35,258 nt of DNA, from contig DXDX01000052.1 in assembly GCA_019115265.1 (NCBI GenBank), positions 1 to 35,258 on the forward strand. Direction: 5' to 3'. Origin of the DNA: Candidatus Flavonifractor merdigallinarum (GTDB lineage Bacteria; Bacillota; Clostridia; Oscillospirales; Oscillospiraceae). The notes under the pieces were generated by a model. It was not told the origin of the DNA. It saw only the letters and a program-made list of their open reading frames with translations, and ran no database searches. Of the stretch, positions 23,124-35,258 are shown piece after piece; position 1 is the first letter of the stretch; each line of letters starts with the position of its first letter. The position numbers were made by a program, and so were the translations under genes.

Positions 23124-23354
23124 ATGAAATGCATCATCCTGCACCGCCGTCTGCTCACCGTGATCGCCTGTGCGTTGGCGGCCTGCGCCATCTTCGCGGT
23201 GGTCAATCACCCGGTCGTGGTGGGCGCGTCCGCCACCACCCGGCAGCTGCCCATTTACAGCGTGGAGCGGGACCAGAAGATGGTCTCCATCTCCTTCGAC
23301 GCGGCCTGGGGTGATGGAAGATTGCGGCTCTTGGAATGGCGTCGGTTGGGGTAG
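23124..23354 (+). pseudogene. Truncated polysaccharide deacetylase (PdaB-like) N-terminal remnant
   Basis: MKCIILHRRLLTVIACALAACAIFAVVNHPVVVGASATTRQLPIYSVERDQKMVSISFDAAWGD matches the typical clostridial PdaB N-terminus up to SISFDAAWG; homology then stops and the frame ends 14 codons later. AGGAGG ribosome-binding site retained. Confidence 0.75.
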
Positions 23355-23415
23355 GGCTTGCGCTCGGCGGGCAAATGCAGTATCCTGTTTCACAAGAGAT
23401 GAGGAGGGATGTGCC

Positions 23416-25920
23416 ATGCCGCAAAAACGTCGTGCAGGCCGGTGGGGCCGCCGGATACTGGGGGCGGTGCTGCTGATTTTAGTGCTGCTGTTTGTGGGCA
23501 TCTTTTATGCCGCACAGCATATCTTGCTGGAAAACGCCCAGGCGCTGGGCAATGAGCTGGCCGACAGCTACTCCCTGGAGGAGAGCCGCAACATCCGCTC
23601 GGTGGAAATTCTCATAGACTTGGGCGCCCAATATCTGGACGACCAAATCCAGGCTGGAGCCTCCCAGAGCGCCCTGGAGGACTGGATGAAAAACTTCTTC
23701 CAAAAGGTGACTGCGGTCACCGGCCAGGAGGTGTTGGATCCCTACGGAGTGGTTCACGGCCAGATTGTGGCGGCGGTACCCTGGTGGGGGGACGCCGACT
23801 ACGACTATACACAGACCAAGTGGTATCAAATGGCCCTCCAGGCGCAGGGAGACCCCATTTTCACCGACGCCTACCCGGACGCCATCACCGGCCGTCCGGT
23901 CCTCACCATCGCCCAGAAGTGTCAGAACTCCGACGATGTGATCGCGTTTGACATCTTCCCGGAAAATTTCAGCGTACAGGACAACGCCCAGGCCCTGCCG
24001 GCGGGGAGCTCCTGCTTTTTCTGCGACTCCAGCGGCACTCTGCTCTACGCCCGCACGCAGATGGAGGAACAGGGGGAAGCGCTGACGGAATATGTCCGCG
24101 TTCTGTATGAAAAAATCCAGCTGGGACAGCTGGACGGCGCTCAGGCGTATATCTATGACCTCTCCGGTGAGAAGCAGGCGGTCTACTTCAACACCACGGA
24201 AAACGGCTGGCTCTCCATCATCACCATCCCCTATTCCGCCCTGCTGGGCGGTCTGCGTCTGGCCTTTCAGGCGGCGCTGCTCCTGTGCGGCGGGGCGCTG
24301 CTGATTCTGGCGGCCATGAGCCTGCGGGAGCGGCGCATCCAGCGGCGCATGGACCGGGTCAGTGAGACGGTGGCCGCGCTGGGCAACCTCTACTACGCCA
24401 TCTACCGGGTGGATGTGGCCCAGGGCACCTATGAGGCCATCAAGGGCTCAGAGCTCATTCAACAGCTCCCCCCCACCGGCCAGTACCCCCAGCTGGTGGA
24501 GGCGGTGAGCGAGGTGATCGACCCGGAGACCTTCTCCCAGTTTCAGAGCAGCTTTTCCCTCCCAAACCTCCAGCGCCTGCTGGAGGAAGAGGTCCCCGAC
24601 TTCGGCGGAGATTTTCGGCGGCGGTTTGGGGAGGAGTACCGCTGGGTCAATGTGCGCCTTCTCTTTGACCCCTCCCTCCAGCCCCATGAGGCGGTATTGT
24701 GCTTCCGCCTGGTGGACGGGGAGAAGGCGGCCCAGCTGCGTCAGTTACAGCTCATGGAGCACGCCCTGGACAGCGCCAAACAGAGCGAGGCCGCCCGGGA
24801 GCAGTTCTTCTCCCAGATGAGCCACGACATGCGCACCCCCCTCAATGTCATCATCGGCACTGCCCAGCTGGCCCAGCGGACCTGCGAGGAAAAAAGTCAG
24901 ACCTATCTGAAAAAAATCCAGGTGGCCGCCAGTCAGCTTCTCAACCTCATCAACGATATTCTGGAGATCTCCCGCATCGAGCAGGCGGGCCTCCATCTGG
25001 AGAACCGGCAGTTTGATTTAGGGGAGACGGTGCGCCAGTGTGTCTCCGCCTTCCAGCCCCAGGCGGAGCTCCAGGAGAAGGAACTCACCCTCTCCCTCCA
25101 GCTGGACCGCTCCCAGGTGTATGGGGACGCCTTCCGGCTCCAACAGGTGCTCAACAATCTGCTGTCCAACGCCCTCAAATTCACCGAAAAGGGCGACCAC
25201 ATTCAGGTTTCGGTGGAACAGCTCCAGCGGGACAAGCACGCCAAATACCGCCTCATCGTGGCGGATACCGGCATTGGGATGTCCAAGGAGTTTCTCCCCA
25301 AGCTCTTCCTCCCCTATGAGCGGGAGACCCGCTTCTCCACTCAGACGGTACTGGGTACCGGCCTGGGGATGCCCATTGTCAAGAGCATTGTCACCAGCAT
25401 GGGCGGACAGATTCAGGTGGACAGCACCCTGGGAGAGGGGAGCACCTTCACCCTCACCCTGCCCCTGGAGGCGGCAGAGGAGCAGACCCCGCCCCCGGAC
25501 GCCCCGGCTCCGCAGGAGCTGACCGGCTCCCTCTCCGGCAAGCGGGTACTGCTGGCGGAAGATTTTGATATGAATATGGAGATTACCACGGAGCTGCTCC
25601 AGATGTGCGGCGCTCAGGTCACGCAGGCCTGGAACGGCCAGGAGGCGGTGGAGCAGTTCCAGGCGTCCGAGCCGGGGTATTTTGATGTCATCCTGATGGA
25701 TATGAACATGCCGGTGATGGACGGATGCACCGCGGCGGCGGCCATCCGGGCGCTGAACCGGCCGGACAGCCAGTCGGTGCCCATTCTGGCCCTCACCGCC
25801 AACGCCTTTGCCGAGGACATCGCCGCCTCCTCTCAGGCGGGGATGAACGCCCACATCGCCAAACCCGTGGACATGGAACAGCTGGCCGCCCTTCTTCAGC
25901 GGCTGACCGCAGACAACTAA
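23416..25920 (+). CDS. Hybrid sensor histidine kinase with C-terminal receiver domain
   Basis: Two TMs flanking an extracytoplasmic sensor; H-box FFSQMSHDMRTPLNVIIG; HATPase motifs NNLLSNALKFTEKG, DTGIGMSKEFL, GTGLGMPIVKSI; REC VLLAEDFDMN...VILMDMNMPVMDG...AHIAKPVD. ATG at 23416 with GAGGAG upstream. Confidence 0.93.
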   Translation: MPQKRRAGRWGRRILGAVLLILVLLFVGIFYAAQHILLENAQALGNELADSYSLEESRNIRSVEILIDLGAQYLDDQIQAGASQSALEDWMKNFFQKVTAVTGQEVLDPYGVVHGQIVAAVPWWGDADYDYTQTKWYQMALQAQGDPIFTDAYPDAITGRPVLTIAQKCQNSDDVIAFDIFPENFSVQDNAQALPAGSSCFFCDSSGTLLYARTQMEEQGEALTEYVRVLYEKIQLGQLDGAQAYIYDLSGEKQAVYFNTTENGWLSIITIPYSALLGGLRLAFQAALLLCGGALLILAAMSLRERRIQRRMDRVSETVAALGNLYYAIYRVDVAQGTYEAIKGSELIQQLPPTGQYPQLVEAVSEVIDPETFSQFQSSFSLPNLQRLLEEEVPDFGGDFRRRFGEEYRWVNVRLLFDPSLQPHEAVLCFRLVDGEKAAQLRQLQLMEHALDSAKQSEAAREQFFSQMSHDMRTPLNVIIGTAQLAQRTCEEKSQTYLKKIQVAASQLLNLINDILEISRIEQAGLHLENRQFDLGETVRQCVSAFQPQAELQEKELTLSLQLDRSQVYGDAFRLQQVLNNLLSNALKFTEKGDHIQVSVEQLQRDKHAKYRLIVADTGIGMSKEFLPKLFLPYERETRFSTQTVLGTGLGMPIVKSIVTSMGGQIQVDSTLGEGSTFTLTLPLEAAEEQTPPPDAPAPQELTGSLSGKRVLLAEDFDMNMEITTELLQMCGAQVTQAWNGQEAVEQFQASEPGYFDVILMDMNMPVMDGCTAAAAIRALNRPDSQSVPILALTANAFAEDIAASSQAGMNAHIAKPVDMEQLAALLQRLTADN

Positions 25921-25924
25921 AACC

Positions 25925-26989
25925 TCAGTCCGAGGGACACTCCGCCAGCGCAGCCTGGATGGCCTGCCGCCCCTCTTCCAGCGTCTGATAGACCTCCTGT
26001 GTCACCACACTCCCCACCTCACTGGCCAGGGTGCGGATCACCCGGTCCAGCCGGTCCGGGTAGCCCTGGTAGTAGTGGAGATAGTGCTGGATACGCAGGG
26101 CCAGGCGGACAATCTGGGCGCTGAGGGGGGCGGTATCCTCCTCCGGGGGCCAGCCGGAGCCGTCGGCGTTCTTGTGGTGCCACCGGGCAATCTCGGCGGC
26201 GCAGCGGAAGAAGGGAATGTCCCCCTCCTGGGAGAAGAGCTCCCAGCCCAAATCCGTGTGGCGGGTCAAATCCTCCTCTTCCCCCTCCCCCACCGGCAGG
26301 CCCAGACGGCCAATGTCGCAGAAGGGCGCGGCCAGACCGATGAGCTCCGCCTCCTCTTGGGTGAGGGGGCCGTCCGGGTGCTGCTCCACATAGACGTGGG
26401 CCAACGCGCCGGCCAGTTTCCCCAGCTGCCGGTAGGCATCTATGGAGAGCTCTGGACGGTAGCGGCAGAAGCGGCACAGGGTATCCAGCCAGCGCTTGGA
26501 CAAGTGCCGCGCCTCCTCCAGGGTGAGGTCCTGGAAGAAAGAGCGCGCCTCCCCCTCCTTCTGAGTCTCCTCTTCCTGAGGGTGGTCCAGAATGGTGCTC
26601 CCCTCCGGCCAGGCCTTTCGGACGACCGCACACACCCGCTCCTGAACGGCGTGGGGATCCACCGGCTTGACCAGAAAGTCCACCGCTCCCCGCTCCACAC
26701 TGGCCCGCACGTCCTTCTCGTTGGCGTCGGTGGTGATGAGGATCACCGGCAAATCGGAGGTGGTCTGCTCCACCTGGAGCTGATAGAGCACCGCAAAGCC
26801 CACCCCCCGGCGGCCCAGGCAGATGTCCAGCAGCACTGCGCAGATGCGCTCCCGGTTCTGCTTGAGGAAGGAGAGTCCCTGGTGGGCGTCGCTGAGGCAC
26901 ACCACCTGGAAGAGATTTTTGAAAATCTCATTCAAAATCGCCAAATCCAGTTCCGAATCGTCAATGACCAGCAGTGTATCCCGTATCAT
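25925..26989 (-). CDS. Response regulator with degenerate HD-GYP-like output domain
   Basis: REC: LLVIDDSELDLAILNEIF...AVLLDICLGRRGVGF...VILITTDANEKDVRASVERGAVDFLVKPVD. C-terminal: LIGLAAPFCDIGRLGLP...RHTDLGWELF...EIARWHHKNADGSGWPPEEDTAPLSAQIVRLALRI. Confidence 0.85.
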   Translation of the reverse strand: MIRDTLLVIDDSELDLAILNEIFKNLFQVVCLSDAHQGLSFLKQNRERICAVLLDICLGRRGVGFAVLYQLQVEQTTSDLPVILITTDANEKDVRASVERGAVDFLVKPVDPHAVQERVCAVVRKAWPEGSTILDHPQEEETQKEGEARSFFQDLTLEEARHLSKRWLDTLCRFCRYRPELSIDAYRQLGKLAGALAHVYVEQHPDGPLTQEEAELIGLAAPFCDIGRLGLPVGEGEEEDLTRHTDLGWELFSQEGDIPFFRCAAEIARWHHKNADGSGWPPEEDTAPLSAQIVRLALRIQHYLHYYQGYPDRLDRVIRTLASEVGSVVTQEVYQTLEEGRQAIQAALAECPSD

Positions 26990-27369
26990 GCCTTTTCCTC
27001 CTTCTGGTACTGTTGAATGAGGTCGGACAGGCTCTCACTCTCCCGCCTGGCCTCCTCCACCAGGGAGAGGAGCTTTTTCTTATTCTGGAATTTGGAGGCG
27101 CGGAACTCCACCAGAATGGCCTGGGCACAGTCGTGGATGGACTCAATGCTCAGATTGCCCGCCATCCCCTTGAGCCCATGGACGCGCATGTAGAATTCTT
27201 CCTCGTCCTCCTGCTCCAGAGCCTGAAGGATGGGCTCAAATTGCAGTTTTTCGGGCAGCTTGCCAATGAAGCTGAGAAACAGGGCCTCATTGCCCATAAA
27301 GCGGCCCAGAGCCTGGGAGATGTTGACGCCGGAATCCTCCAGCAGAGCCAAAAAAACTTCTTTGTCCAT
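26986..27369 (-). CDS. Histidine phosphotransfer (HPt) domain protein
   Basis: MDKEVFLALLEDSGVNISQALGRFMGNEALFLSFIGKLPEKLQFEPILQALEQEDEEEFYMRVHGLKGMAGNLSIESIHDCAQAI: HPt fold with phospho-acceptor motif HGLKGMAGNLS; overlaps the REC-HD gene start by 4 bp. Confidence 0.88.
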   Translation of the reverse strand: MDKEVFLALLEDSGVNISQALGRFMGNEALFLSFIGKLPEKLQFEPILQALEQEDEEEFYMRVHGLKGMAGNLSIESIHDCAQAILVEFRASKFQNKKKLLSLVEEARRESESLSDLIQQYQKEEKA

Positions 27370-27506: not shown

Positions 27507-27535
27507 TTGACAAGTTTCTCCCCTCATGTTATAAA
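27507..27535 (+). promoter_or_regulatory. Promoter of the ZTP riboswitch-pflA-pflB transcript
   Basis: TTGACA (27507-27512) - 17 nt - TATAAA (27530-27535); predicted start falls at about 27541-27543. Confidence 0.8.
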
Positions 27536-27540
27536 TAGAC

Positions 27541-27643
27541 TATCATATGACTGACGGATAATGTGGAGCCTACCACATGGAGTATGATACAAAAAGCCGA
27601 CCGTCTGGGCGAGAGAAGCCTGGATTGCCGGCTTTTCTCTTTT
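27541..27643 (+). ncRNA. ZTP/ZMP riboswitch (pfl motif) with intrinsic-terminator expression platform
   Basis: P1 TATCAT/ATGATA; junction ATGACTGACGG (cf. UGACUGGCG); P2 ATGTGG-AGCCTA-CCACAT followed by GGAG; conserved 3' domain GCCGACCGTCTGGGC; pseudoknot GACGG:CCGTC. Terminator GAGAGAAGCC-TGGATTGCC-GGCTTTTCTC-TTTT at 27611-27643. Confidence 0.92.
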
Positions 27644-27665
27644 GGAAAAAGGAGGAATTTTTCCC

Positions 27666-28388
27666 ATGACAGCGGGGCTGATCCACTCCCTGGAATCCAT
27701 GGGCCTGGTGGACGGGCCGGGCATCCGCACCGTGGTCTTTTTGCAGGGCTGCGCCCTGCGCTGCCGCTACTGCCACAACCCGGACACCTGGGCCCTCCAG
27801 TCCCCAGCGGCCCAGTCCATCACCCCGGCGGCGCTGGTGGAGAAGCTAATCCGCTTCCAGCCCTATTATGGCAAAAACGGCGGGGTCACCTTCTCCGGCG
27901 GGGAACCCTTGCTCCAGCCGGAATTTCTGGCTGAGGCCCTGAATCGCTGCCGGGAGGCGGGTATCCACACCTGCCTGGATACGGCGGGGGCGGGCCTGGG
28001 GGAATACGGGGCCATTCTCGCCCACACCGACCTCATTCTGCTGGACGTGAAGCACTACACCCCCGAGGGCTACCGGGCGGTGACCGGGGCGGACATGGGG
28101 GCCTTTGACAAGTTCCTGGCCGCCGCTCAGGAGGCGGAGATCCCCCTGTGGGTGCGCCATGTGGTGGTACCTGGCCTCACCGACGGGGAAGAGCACCTGG
28201 CAGGGCTGGAGCGGTACCTCCAGACCATCCGCCACATTCAGCGGGTGGAGCTGCTGCCCTACCACACGTTGGGCGTCCACAAGTACGCCGCCCTGGGCAT
28301 CCCCTACCCCCTGGAGGGGGTAGAGCCCCCCGATCCCTCCACTCTGGAGGACTGGACCCGACGCTTGAATCAAACTTGTTGTGAATAA
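27666..28388 (+). CDS. pflA: Pyruvate formate-lyase activating enzyme (radical SAM)
   Basis: MTAGLIHSLESMGLVDGPGIRTVVFLQGCALRCRYCHNPDTW (CxxxCxxC), VTFSGGEPLLQPEFL; GGAGGA ribosome-binding site. Confidence 0.95.
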   Translation: MTAGLIHSLESMGLVDGPGIRTVVFLQGCALRCRYCHNPDTWALQSPAAQSITPAALVEKLIRFQPYYGKNGGVTFSGGEPLLQPEFLAEALNRCREAGIHTCLDTAGAGLGEYGAILAHTDLILLDVKHYTPEGYRAVTGADMGAFDKFLAAAQEAEIPLWVRHVVVPGLTDGEEHLAGLERYLQTIRHIQRVELLPYHTLGVHKYAALGIPYPLEGVEPPDPSTLEDWTRRLNQTCCE

Positions 28389-28397
28389 GGAGTTTTT

Positions 28398-30641
28398 ATG
28401 AGTATTGATGTGAACTGTGCCGCCTGGAGCGGCTTCCGCACCGGCGAGTGGCGCCACCTGGTGAATGTCCGCAATTTTATCCAGAAAAATTACACTCCGT
28501 ACGCGGGCGATGCCTCCTTCCTGGCCCCCATTTCCACAAAAACCGCCGCTGTGTGGAAAAAGGCCCACGCCCTCATCATTGAGGAGGTGAAGAAGGGCAT
28601 CATCGACGTGGAGACGGACGCCGTCTCCGGCATTGACAACTTCGCCCCCGGCTACATTGACCAGGAAAATGAGGTCATTGTGGGCCTCCAGACCGACGCA
28701 CCCCTCAAGCGGATTGTCAACCCCTTCGGCGGCATCCGCAACGCCACCTCCGCCCTGGAGCAGTACGGCTACCAGCTCAACCCGGAGATTGAGCGCCACT
28801 TCCGCCTCTACCGCAAGACTCACAACGAGGGCGTGTTCGACGCCTACCCCAAGCGCACCCGTCTGGCCCGGACGGCGGGGCTGCTCACCGGCCTGCCCGA
28901 CGCCTATGGCCGGGGGCGCATTGTGGGCGACTACCGCCGGGTGCCCCTGTACGGCACTGACTTCCTCATTGAAGAGAAGAAGGCCGACCTGGACCGGATT
29001 GACGGCCCCATGACCGACGAGCGCATCCGCCTGCGGGAGGAGGTGCAGATGCAGATCCGCGCCCTGGAGGAGATGGCCCACATGGCGGCCCGGTACGGCT
29101 GCGACATCACCCGCCCGGCGGAAAACGCCCATGAGGCGGTGCAGAACCTGTATATGGCCTACCTGGCAGGCATCAAGGAAAATAACGGCGCGGCCACCTC
29201 TCTGGGCCGCACTTCCACCTTCCTGGACATCTACATCCAGCGGGACCTGGACCGGGGCCTGCTGGACGAGCAGGGGGCCCAGGAGCTCATCGACCAGTTT
29301 GTCATCAAGCTGCGCCTGGTGCGCCACCTGCGCACCCCCGAGTACAACGAGCTCTTCGGCGGCGACCCCACCTGGGTCACCGAGTCCATCGGCGGCATGG
29401 GGGTAGACGGCCGCACCCTGGTGACCAAAAACTCCTTCCGCTACCTCCATACCCTCACCAACCTGGGCACCGCCCCCGAGCCCAACCTCACCGTGCTGTG
29501 GAGCAAGGACCTGCCCCAGGGCTTCAAGGACTACTGCTCCAAAATGAGCATCGACACCGACTCCATCCAGTACGAGAGCGACGAGGTGATGCGGCCCATG
29601 TACGGCGACGACTACTGCATTGCCTGCTGCGTCTCCGCCATGGCGGTGGGCAAGCAGATGCAGTTCTTCGGGGCCCGGGCCAACCTGGCCAAGAGCCTCT
29701 TGTACGCCATCAACGGCGGCGTGGACGAGAAGAAGGGCATTCAGGTGGTACCGGGAATTGAGCCGGATACCGATGAGGTCTTGCAGTACTCCAAGGTGCT
29801 GGGCAACTACAAAAAAGTGCTCTCCTATGTGGCGGAGCTCTACGTGGACACCATCAACATCATCCACTATATGTACGACAAATACGCCTACGAGAGCAGC
29901 CAGATGGCCCTCCACGACACTCTGGTGGAGCGGCTGGCCGCCTTCGGGGTGGCGGGGCTGTCCATCGCCGCCGACTCCCTGTCGGCCATCAAGTTCGCCC
30001 AGGTAAAGCCCATCCGCAACGAGAACGGCATCGCTGTGGACTTTGAGGTGGAGGGCGACTTCCCCAAGTACGGCAACGACGACGACCGGGTGGACGACAT
30101 CGCCGTGGAGCTGGTGTCCTACTTTTCCGCTGAACTGAAAAAGCACCCCCTGTACCGGAACGCCATCCACACCCTCTCCGCCCTGACCATTACCTCCAAC
30201 GTGATGTACGGCAAAAAGACAGGGACCACCCCGGACGGCCGCAAGGCGGGAGAGCCCTTCGCCCCCGGCGCCAACCCCATGCACGGCCGGGACAAAAACG
30301 GGGCCCTGGCCTCCCTCAACTCGGTGGCCAAAATCCCCTACCGGGCGGTGTGTCAGGACGGGGTGTCCAACACCTTCTCTATTGTGCCCGCGGCCCTGGG
30401 CAAGAGCGACACCGAGCGGGTGGACAACCTGGTGTCCATCCTGGACGGGTACTTCCTCCAGGGGGCCCACCACCTGAACGTAAATGTGATGAACCGCCAG
30501 CTCCTGCTGGACGCCATGGACCACCCAGAGCAGTACCCCACCCTCACCATCCGGGTGTCGGGCTACGCGGTGAACTTCTCCCGCCTGAGCCGGGAGCAGC
30601 AGCTGGAGGTCATCAAGCGCACCTTCCACGAGCGCATGTAA
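28398..30641 (+). CDS. pflB: Formate C-acetyltransferase (pyruvate formate-lyase)
   Basis: 747 aa; [38 protein letters not shown] (active-site Cys-Cys) and C-terminal glycyl-radical motif [31 protein letters not shown]. Confidence 0.97.
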
Positions 30642-31146: not shown

Positions 31147-34100
31147 TTACGCCATAGACTCCACAAAGCGCATGAGGATGGCGGCCACCTGGGCGCGGGT
31201 CGCCTCGCCCTGGGGATCCAGTGCACCGCTTCCGGTCCCGGCAATCAGGCCGTTCTCCACCGCCCAAGTCATGGCGTCGGTGGCATAGGCACTCACGCTG
31301 GCCCCATCCGGGTAGCCGGACAGGCTGCCGGTGACAGCGGGGCTTCCGGCGTAACGGTAGAGCATGGCGGCCAGCTGCTCTCTGGAGAGGTTCTGCTCCA
31401 TATTGGTGCCATCGGAGATTCCGTTGGCCATGGCCCACTGCCGGCCAGCCGTATACCAGGTCGCGCCGGTGGAGGTATCCACCCCCTCAAAACGGGCCAG
31501 AACGGTGACAATCATCGCGCGGGTCATGGGCGTCTCCGGCCCAAAGGTGGTGGCGCTGGTGCCCGCAAAGAGCTCCCGGCTGGTAGCAAAGTTCACCGCT
31601 TCGGACCCCCAGTGGGTGTAAGGCACATCCTGGAACGTCTTACCGTTATCCACAATCTTGACGGTGTCGCCGTCGCTGAGGGTGACAGACACGCCGTCGC
31701 GTGTGGTGACAGAGGTCTTGATAACCTCCTCGGTGCCGTCGGCCTTCACCAGAATGGCCACCGTACCGGTGGTGGGGTTCTTTACGGGGATTTCCACCTT
31801 GGCACTGCTGCCGGTGGGCAGGTCTACGGTAATTGTGGAGGCACCGGTGCGGCTGGTGGTGACCGGCACGCTGGGCATGGGCAGGGTCACAGCCGCACTG
31901 CCGGCCTCCTCCACCACACTGGCGGGGAGGGTCACTTCCGCTGTGACCTGGCCATTCTGGCTGAGAGTAGTGGTGCTGCCGGAGCCATCCCGGTTGGTCA
32001 CCGTTGTCTTGCTGGAGCCGTTGGGGTTCTCCACTGTCTTGGTCTCGTTACCCGACTTGTCTGTGCTCGTTGTGGTCACCGTGCCGTCCTTGGCTGTTTC
32101 CACAACCTCCTTGGAGCCGTCGGGGTGTTTGGTGGTCTCCGTCTTGGTGCCGTTGGGCTTGGTCACCGTGGTCGTAGTGGAGCCATCCGGGTTCCGTTCG
32201 GTGGTGGTGTTGCCGGAGGGGGTATAGTCGTCATCATCGTCATGCGAGGAGGACGAACCGCCGCCACCGCCGCTGCTGGGCGTCACCGTATAGAGGACCA
32301 CTATGCCGTTGATGGTGTTGTAATTCCCCTGGTCGGTGGGGGTAAAAATCCACTTGTAGGAGGTGTTGGACTGTACCGCCGTGGTGCCGGGAAGTTCCCA
32401 GGCCACGGTGCCGGGCACCGAGAAGGTGCCGCCCTGGACGGTCAGACCGGCATCTGCCAGGGTCTTGCCGCTGGTGGTGATGGCGGTGTACTTGGGCGCA
32501 CCGGTAGGTGTGGCCTTGGAAATGGTTACCTTTACCGTGGCAGTCACCGTGGTATAGGTCTTCTGGTCGTCGGGGGTAAAGAACACGGTATGTTCTCCGC
32601 TGTCGGCCACATTTACAGGGGGATTGGCACCGCTAGACCACGTCCAGGTGCCGCTCACCGATTCGCCGTTATAGGTGGCAGTGCCCTTGATGTCAGAATT
32701 CTTCAAAGCGCTGCCGGTATAGGTGATGCTGATGGGCTCCACGGTGACACTGGGAGTAAAGAGATTGGTACCGGTGAGTTTCAACGTCAGGGCCGAATCG
32801 TTGTAGTTGACGCCGCCATGAATGACCACCTTGAGGGTATAGGTACCACCCACAACCACAGACTTGCCGCCGGTGTAGCTCAGTTTGCTTCCGTCCAGGG
32901 TCAGATTGGTCACATACTCCGCCGTGGTGGCGGCGTCGCCAAAGGAGACCTCGCCATAGCTGGCCCCATCAGGCAGGGCGGGCAGAATGACATAGCCGGC
33001 AGTCTCCGCCTTCACATAGCCGGAAGCTGTGGTGGCATTGGGGTAGTCGGCCTTGTTGATGGTAATGGTGGCCTCGGCGCTGGTGATAGAATTGTAATTA
33101 TTGTCCCCGGCCTTGGTTGCGGTGACGGTGACATCGCCCACCTGTACGGGCACCAGATTGCTGCCGCTGATGGTGGCCTTGCCGGTGCCGTCGGTGACAG
33201 CGAAGGTCACCGCGCCGTCGCCGGAACCGCCGGAAGTGGTCAGCGGGTAGTTCTCCCCATAGGTGGCAGGACCGGCGCTGGTGATGGTCAGTGCGGCCTG
33301 GTCGGCCTTGGCGATGGTGAAGCTGCCAGCGGGAAGATCGGTGGCGGCGGCGTAACCGGTGCCCTCGGCCACATCAAAGGTGACGGTGTAGCTGCCTGCA
33401 TTAACGGGAGGGGTGGTATTGCCGTTGTACTTGATAGCGGTAACATTACCCATACCCGCCACAGTAGCGTTGACCGTTACAGAAGCTGTTTTTTCCTTGC
33501 CATCATACACCGCGCCCTGGGGCAGAGTGATGGAAAAATTCTCTGCAGTGGGAATGTTCAGAACAATAATACCACTCACAACAGCAGTTTTTCCGGCATA
33601 GGTGACGGTGACGTTGGTGGTACCAACAATCAGCGGATCGGGACTTACGGTGTAGCCTGACACCGGTGCGCTGCTGCCGTCATCATAGGTGGCGGTAACC
33701 TCCATACCGGCGGGGTCGAACGAGTCACCGTTTTTATATTTCAGAGTGGCGGGCTGCTTGGTGATGGTGATGCCGGTCACCGTCTTATTCGCTGTGGCTG
33801 GGAAGGTCTTGGTGAGGACCAGGCTGCCGTCAGAGCCAGGGGTCAGATTAGACACCTTTCCGTCCATTGACACGGCGGTGGGGTTGGCAAAGGGCTGGTC
33901 TCCGGTAACGGTCAGGGTGATCTTTGCGGTATAGACGGTATTGGCCTTAAACGTGCCTGTAGCAGGGGTCCCGGTGACGGAAGTCCCTTCATACCACGTT
34001 ACCTCACCGTTCACACCGGTGGCAGGTTCGGTAACAGTTGCATTCACAAACATACCAGTGCCGGTGACAGGTGCTGTGACACTGACCGTCACCGCCGAGA

Positions 34101-35258
34101 TGGGACCGGCCTTGGTGGTGGCAGTCAGGGCGGCGGACGGTGCAGAGGCGTTGTGGGTGGTTGTCTCCTTCACCCGGGCGACAATGGAGTACTCAGTGCT
34201 GGGAGACAGGCCGCTGAAAACATTGGAGGCCTGCCAGCTGCCGCCGTTGTCTTTGGAGTACTCCCAAGTATCATTGGCAGTCACGGTAATGGAATCGGAG
34301 GTAACCGATGTAGCAGTCAAATTCGTGGGCGCGGCGGGTCCATCGCCTTTGGCTATGGTGCTGGTCGTAGAAGAGGTCAGCTCGCCGGAGTAGTCCTCGG
34401 CGGTGACCTTTACCGTGATGGTCTTGCCCACATCCTCGGCGGTGGCAGGGGTGTAGGTGCTGCTGATGGCGCCGGAAATGGCCTCGCTGCCACGGTACCA
34501 CTGATAGGTAAAGGAGGAAGCGTTACTGCCGCTGACACTCGCCGTCAGCTGTTCGCCAATCTTCGCCGTACCGCTGATGGACACAGAACCGGTCAGATTC
34601 TCCTTGGGTGTGTATTTGTTCGTTTCCAGAGTGGGGTAAGTAAACTGGTACTGTGAGCTGCTGCTGCTCCAACTGCCGCTTTCTGTGTGGCTATTGCCAA
34701 AGGTTACATTAGAACCAAAGTTTGACGCAGGTGTATCTTTTCCAACCAGGAAGAAATCATGATAGGTAGTAGTCTTATCGTCATCGTCCCAGGTACAGTC
34801 CACAGCGTACCACTTGCTGTCGTCCATCTGGACATAGTTCCACATGTGGTCTTCCTGCTTGCCATTTGTTCCGCCTGTACCACTGACCAGCACACAGGGA
34901 ATCTTGTACTCGTCACACAGTACCTTGAACGCTTTGGCATAGCCGGCGCATACTGTCACATGCTCCACTAAAGCGCTGTATACTGTCTGGAACTTGCGGG
35001 GCGTCAAATCTGAACTTGTGGTATAGGATACAGTATCGCACACATAGTCATGAATGGCTTGGACCTGTTCATAGCGGGTCTTATCCGCTGCATCGACATT
35101 GTATGTTCCGCTGTCATTATTCAGAGTCGTGATGGCGCTATTCAGAGCTTGGGTATAATCAGAAGAGGTTCCAGTCTCATTACTGTAATCGGTCACAGTC
35201 ACTGTGATTCCGTTCAGGGTAATGGTAGCGGTGTAGTTGTTATCGCTTCCCTGCACAT
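31147..35258 (-). CDS. Large surface protein: transglutaminase-like domain, Ig-like/MBG-type repeats, low-complexity Thr-rich repeats, three C-terminal SLH domains (N-terminus outside window)
   Basis: QAIHDYVCDTVSYTTS...TVCAGYAKAFKVLCDEYKIPCVLVSGT...EDHMWNYVQMDDSKWYAVDCTWDDDD (transglutaminase-like C/H/D); multiple Ig-like modules; SLH motifs FQDVPYTHWGSEAVNFATSRELFAGTSATTFGPETPMTRAMIVTVLARFEG, WYTAGRQWAMANGISDG...LSREQLAAMLYRYAG, YATDAMTWAVENGLIAGTGSGALDPQGEATRAQVAAILMRFVE. Confidence 0.9.
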   Translation of the reverse strand, partial: VQGSDNNYTATITLNGITVTVTDYSNETGTSSDYTQALNSAITTLNNDSGTYNVDAADKTRYEQVQAIHDYVCDTVSYTTSSDLTPRKFQTVYSALVEHVTVCAGYAKAFKVLCDEYKIPCVLVSGTGGTNGKQEDHMWNYVQMDDSKWYAVDCTWDDDDKTTTYHDFFLVGKDTPASNFGSNVTFGNSHTESGSWSSSSSQYQFTYPTLETNKYTPKENLTGSVSISGTAKIGEQLTASVSGSNASSFTYQWYRGSEAISGAISSTYTPATAEDVGKTITVKVTAEDYSGELTSSTTSTIAKGDGPAAPTNLTATSVTSDSITVTANDTWEYSKDNGGSWQASNVFSGLSPSTEYSIVARVKETTTHNASAPSAALTATTKAGPISAVTVSVTAPVTGTGMFVNATVTEPATGVNGEVTWYEGTSVTGTPATGTFKANTVYTAKITLTVTGDQPFANPTAVSMDGKVSNLTPGSDGSLVLTKTFPATANKTVTGITITKQPATLKYKNGDSFDPAGMEVTATYDDGSSAPVSGYTVSPDPLIVGTTNVTVTYAGKTAVVSGIIVLNIPTAENFSITLPQGAVYDGKEKTASVTVNATVAGMGNVTAIKYNGNTTPPVNAGSYTVTFDVAEGTGYAAATDLPAGSFTIAKADQAALTITSAGPATYGENYPLTTSGGSGDGAVTFAVTDGTGKATISGSNLVPVQVGDVTVTATKAGDNNYNSITSAEATITINKADYPNATTASGYVKAETAGYVILPALPDGASYGEVSFGDAATTAEYVTNLTLDGSKLSYTGGKSVVVGGTYTLKVVIHGGVNYNDSALTLKLTGTNLFTPSVTVEPISITYTGSALKNSDIKGTATYNGESVSGTWTWSSGANPPVNVADSGEHTVFFTPDDQKTYTTVTATVKVTISKATPTGAPKYTAITTSGKTLADAGLTVQGGTFSVPGTVAWELPGTTAVQSNTSYKWIFTPTDQGNYNTINGIVVLYTVTPSSGGGGGSSSSHDDDDDYTPSGNTTTERNPDGSTTTTVTKPNGTKTETTKHPDGSKEVVETAKDGTVTTTSTDKSGNETKTVENPNGSSKTTVTNRDGSGSTTTLSQNGQVTAEVTLPASVVEEAGSAAVTLPMPSVPVTTSRTGASTITVDLPTGSSAKVEIPVKNPTTGTVAILVKADGTEEVIKTSVTTRDGVSVTLSDGDTVKIVDNGKTFQDVPYTHWGSEAVNFATSRELFAGTSATTFGPETPMTRAMIVTVLARFEGVDTSTGATWYTAGRQWAMANGISDGTNMEQNLSREQLAAMLYRYAGSPAVTGSLSGYPDGASVSAYATDAMTWAVENGLIAGTGSGALDPQGEATRAQVAAILMRFVESMA
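31945..32200 (-). repeat. Degenerate ~11-residue Thr/Gly/Asp-rich repeats encoded in the SLH protein
   Basis: RNPDGSTTTTVTK / PNGTKTETTKH / PDGSKEVVETAK / DGTVTTTSTDK / SGNETKTVEN / PNGSSKTTVTN / RDGSGSTTTLSQ. Confidence 0.75.

Follow-up and report, generated by a model that had tools for sequence, protein, structure and literature searches.

The leader RNA of the pflA–pflB operon of Candidatus Flavonifractor merdigallinarum carries a genuine ZTP riboswitch, a functional-looking example of an ordinary, well-known kind in one of its best-known locations, and it very probably switches transcription of the operon ON. The element was analysed in a 35,258-nt stretch of DNA (the window); its parts and the genes downstream are listed in Table 1.

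Table 1. Positions of the riboswitch, its promoter and expression platform, and the downstream genes in the window
Feature	Position	Strand	Details and basis
Promoter	27507..27535	+	TTGACA 27507-27512, 17-nt spacer, TATAAA 27530-27535; read directly
ZMP/ZTP aptamer (pfl motif)	27537..27617	+	full-length match to RF01750
P1	27541..27589	+	27541-27548 pairs with 27582-27589; two-sided changes at 8/8 pairs in 86 relatives
Pseudoknot 5' strand GACGG	27553..27557	+	partner CCGTC 27601-27605; paired in 100% of cells in 86 relatives
P2	27561..27578	+	ATGTGG 27561-27566 / CCACAT 27573-27578
Expression platform, terminator-type hairpin	about 27591..27643	+	RNAfold, pflA relatives
P3 hairpin GCC..GGC	27596..27610	+	GCCGACCGTCTGGGC; bears 3' pseudoknot strand CCGTC 27601-27605; alignment to RF01750, covariation
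Alternative hairpin (putative ligand-bound state)	27611..27639	+	GAGAGAAGCC / GGCTTTTCTC; MFE with P3/pseudoknot strand blocked
Shine-Dalgarno of pflA, AGGAGG	27650..27655	+	read directly
pflA, pyruvate formate-lyase-activating enzyme (radical SAM)	27666..28388, ATG 27666	+	TIGR02493 288.6 bits, cut-off 231.75
pflB, formate C-acetyltransferase	28398..30641	+	TIGR01255 1232.2 bits, cut-off 994.2

The pflA leader contains a ZMP/ZTP aptamer

An earlier note on this DNA had proposed a ZTP (pfl) aptamer in front of pflA–pflB and suggested a covariance-model search as a check. The Rfam family RF01750 (ZMP-ZTP) matched over its full length (model positions 1–86 of 86), with a score of 56.1 bits against a curated gathering score of 39 and an E-value of 1.1e-6 (cmscan of the 35 kb window against 4227 families). 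In the whole-genome search the E-value of this match was 1.9e-8. Both downstream genes scored over their cut-offs, and the proposal is largely upheld. No other Rfam family matched above its gathering score in the window. The whole-genome search found no second ZTP riboswitch; as the genome is ~82% complete, this uniqueness is provisional.

Like other members of RF01750, the aptamer is built as P1-J1/2-P2, a variable linker and P3 with an H-type pseudoknot, and it precedes the kind of gene that gave the motif its name. In P1, TATCAT (27541–27546) pairs with ATGATA (27584–27589), the junction ATGACTGACGG occupies 27547–27557, and GGAG (27579–27582) follows directly 3' of P2. P1, P2, GGAG, the junction, the P3 domain and the pseudoknot all lie where the earlier note had placed them. 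Every sequence-testable defining feature of the family is present in the window: the three helices with the conserved junction and the GCCG..CUGGGC core, the pseudoknot in which GRCGG of J1/2 pairs with CCGYC of the P3 loop, and a leader position before one-carbon/purine genes, with pflA–pflB directly downstream. Different from the consensus, the linker is short (27590–27595), and GGCGG:CCGCC of the pseudoknot is replaced by GACGG:CCGUC, the majority form in the sampled Clostridia. ZMP/ZTP is the established ligand of pfl-motif RNAs, which are tied to purine and 10-formyl-THF genes (PMC7266159); by homology, the RNA of the window would be expected to bind it as well.

Covariation was analysed in an alignment of 86 aptamers from family, phylum and pflA relatives. 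P1, P2, P3 and the pseudoknot together were paired in 93.7% of cells, compared to 31–44% with slid partners. Two-sided changes occurred at 15/20 pairs and in 221 cells, compared to 73 in shuffles; as the cells count related sequences, these figures overstate the number of independent events. The P2 core, GTGG:CCAC, was paired in 96% of cells. The five pairs of the pseudoknot were formed in 430/430 cells, whereas slid controls reached at most 47%; its 26 two-sided changes comprise 23 A-U to G-C and three G-C to A-U changes.

The earlier note had regarded GACGG:CCGTC as a compensatory change relative to a GGCG:CGCC form. The compensatory relation stands, but the variant is not special to the window: A-U occupies the variable pseudoknot pair in 62 of the 86 aligned aptamers, and GACGG:CCGUC is the commonest pseudoknot, found in 72 of 104 unique aptamers. 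We thus rejected the idea of an unusual compensatory variant; the sequence covaries with GGCGG:CCGCC, yet it is the majority form.

Promoter and expression platform

The coordinates of the earlier note held for the aptamer but missed a promoter and a terminator-type platform located just outside them. The promoter matches the consensus at 11/12 bases and places the predicted transcription start at about 27541–27543, the 5' edge of P1. The closest pflA relatives possess TTGACA and a TATAAN-type −10 box 13–15 nt upstream of the ACTG core. The consensus promoter scan gave no match here, as it accepts only −10 boxes whose sixth base is T; promoter and terminator were instead called from the sequence itself, from folding and from their conservation in relatives.

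The platform consists of a 5' arm, AAAAGCCGACCGTCTGGGC, which holds P3 and the pseudoknot strand, a GAGAGAA loop and an invader arm, GCCTGGATTGCCGGCTTTT (27618–27636), followed by the pyrimidine/U tract CTCTTTT (27637–27643). As predicted by RNAfold, 27592–27610 pairs with 27618–27636 with an energy of −23.1 kcal/mol (z = −3.4), and 0/200 shuffles were equally stable. Sequence and folding indicated that this hairpin and P3/pseudoknot are mutually exclusive. In 47 other pflA leaders, too, the P3/pseudoknot strand is predicted to supply the 5' side of such a hairpin, and the U run there is usually longer than that of the window. Relatives sharing the architecture include Flavonifractor sp. An92, Pseudoflavonifractor phocaeensis, [Clostridium] symbiosum and Fournierella massiliensis. 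Flavonifractor sp. An92 (L037/L035) belongs to the genus of the window; its riboswitch has a near-identical aptamer, the same platform architecture and pflA downstream, and differs slightly in the sequence of the P2 loop and of the invader.

The predicted terminator of the window is rather weak. Its stem contains two mismatches (27600 with 27628 and 27602 with 27626), and its U tract is broken (UUUUCUCUUUU). The longest U run is four residues; the stem can absorb UUUU (27633–27636), leaving CUCUUUU. Published curation of this class called for at least 5 U in the poly-U tract that follows the stem (PMC10085676). A simple terminator scan reported no terminator here, probably owing to the interruptions of the stem and the few Ts behind it.

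The pfl riboswitch of Clostridium beijerinckii, measured in cells and in vitro, is an ON switch based on ligand-gated strand displacement. Without ligand, its P3 and pseudoknot give way to an invader strand, which ZMP blocks; the pflA-regulating Clostridium members behaved alike (PMC10085676). The riboswitch in the window precedes the same gene and shares the design: in the predicted terminator, the P3/pseudoknot strand forms the 5' arm, and the 3' arm is formed by an invader that leaves mismatches in the stem. Its two stem mismatches and its interrupted U tract set it apart from the C. beijerinckii riboswitch and predict that the ON level or the leak in the OFF state differs. Stem mismatches tune the dynamic range (PMC10085676); given the two mismatches and the broken U tract, the dynamic range of the window's switch may therefore differ.

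Alternative explanations

Control of pflA might instead be mainly translational. In the free RNA, the U tract CUCUUUU would pair with the Shine-Dalgarno (AAAAGGAG), and ligand binding would draw the U tract into the alternative hairpin, away from it. The MFE of the window's leader does pair the two, holding the P3/pseudoknot strand increases the mean probability predicted for an unpaired Shine-Dalgarno from 0.11 to 0.38, and the interrupted terminator U tract would fit this reading. However, over the 47 pflA leaders the mean accessibility of the Shine-Dalgarno was 0.34 vs 0.35, and among the changes greater than 0.1, 13 were up and 10 were down. There being no consistent trend, we rejected conserved translational control through this pairing. 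Moreover, a U tract and a purine-rich Shine-Dalgarno pair trivially, and the terminator architecture is conserved; predominantly translational control thus appears improbable. We give similarly little credence to a switch acting at two levels, in which termination would be combined with a U tract that hides the pflA Shine-Dalgarno in ligand-free read-through RNA and frees it on ligand binding. If true, it would provide a tighter OFF state, offsetting the weak terminator.

A terminator stem weaker than in most relatives might also be expected of a degenerate aptamer, one that is recognisable in sequence and has lost ligand binding or switching. Such decay is very unlikely: the score is well above the gathering score, the pseudoknot, P2 and P3 pairs are all intact, and promoter, aptamer and platform stand in order upstream of intact pflA–pflB. 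Chance resemblance to an RNA element is refuted by the RF01750 match with its E-values in window and genome, by covariation and by conservation of the element upstream of pflA in dozens of species.

Proposed mechanism

The reading that we favour, a transcriptional ON switch, is based on the RF01750 match, the covariation, the P3-derived terminator hairpin of the window and of the 47 relatives, and the C. beijerinckii precedent. It is also based on the genes that the aptamers fetched from family and phylum precede, namely purE, IMP cyclohydrolase, fhs, glyA and PFL-type genes, which form the expected one-carbon/purine regulon.

Transcription is predicted to start at the 5' edge of P1. By homology with the known ZTP riboswitches, when ZMP/ZTP is low, the newly made invader arm would oust P3 and the pseudoknot strand, and the resulting long hairpin and U-rich tract would halt transcription ahead of pflA. 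A shortage of 10-formyl-THF would stall AICAR formylation, and ZMP/ZTP would build up. The ligand would then lock the P1-P2/P3 pseudoknot aptamer, leaving the invader to pair with 27611–27620 in the alternative hairpin, and the polymerase would read through into pflA–pflB. PFL would convert pyruvate to formate and Fhs would convert formate to 10-formyl-THF, relieving the shortage.

The genome encodes one formate-THF ligase (Fhs), a protein with an AICAR-formyltransferase domain (partial purH match, positions 197–511) and a separate IMP cyclohydrolase; no PFL-like gene other than pflB was found in the ~82% complete genome. With these enzymes present, the genome is consistent with the one-carbon logic that the earlier note had put forward, which is the published logic for the class. 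The element adds a regulatory RNA omitted by gene tracks and links the ZTP alarmone with the single PFL found in this gut bacterium of the Flavonifractor type; formate output should therefore respond to folate or purine stress. Its platform, with two stem mismatches and a broken U tract, contributes a natural variant to a well-studied strand-displacement system. Knowledge of the ZTP riboswitch class as such is unchanged by this example.

Distribution in relatives and genome context

The riboswitch was found in 7/10 genomes of the window's genus, whereas a PFL-activating enzyme scored over the cut-off in only two, those of the window and of Flavonifractor sp. An92; these are small numbers, and some of the genomes are incomplete. 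In both genomes the riboswitch precedes pflA. The other five (L025, L032, L033, L034 and L036), without a PFL activase over the cut-off, carry it before fhs in one case and otherwise before IMP cyclohydrolase, which was confirmed by Pfam in two genomes and recognised by a matching N-terminal sequence in two. In the wider family, 130/301 sampled genomes have at least one copy, and in the phylum it is present in 52/300. One aptamer (L145:845-1429, − strand) precedes a DUF436 gene, which is not among the usual one-carbon/purine genes. Another (L027:500-1447, − strand) is located upstream of a trigger-factor-like (FKBP_C + Trigger_C) gene, and its true target may be further downstream.

The purH function is split in this genome (G000:C17:24007-25856; L148, L171): a stand-alone IMP cyclohydrolase (PF07826) lies beside the AICAR-formyltransferase-domain protein, which has no N-terminal part of PurH. 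No recognisable aptamer core (ACTG[AG]CG) was found in coding orientation around this operon, where several congeners carry one.

Within the window, 25925–27369 (− strand), divergent from pflA, encodes a small Hpt-like protein and a response regulator that matches an HD domain weakly. They adjoin a hybrid histidine kinase at 23170–25920 (+ strand), whose match to a dCache sensor is also weak. On the other side of the operon, 31147–35256 (− strand) encodes a large surface protein of 1369 aa, which contains a transglutaminase-like core, Ig-like domains and C-terminal S-layer homology repeats.
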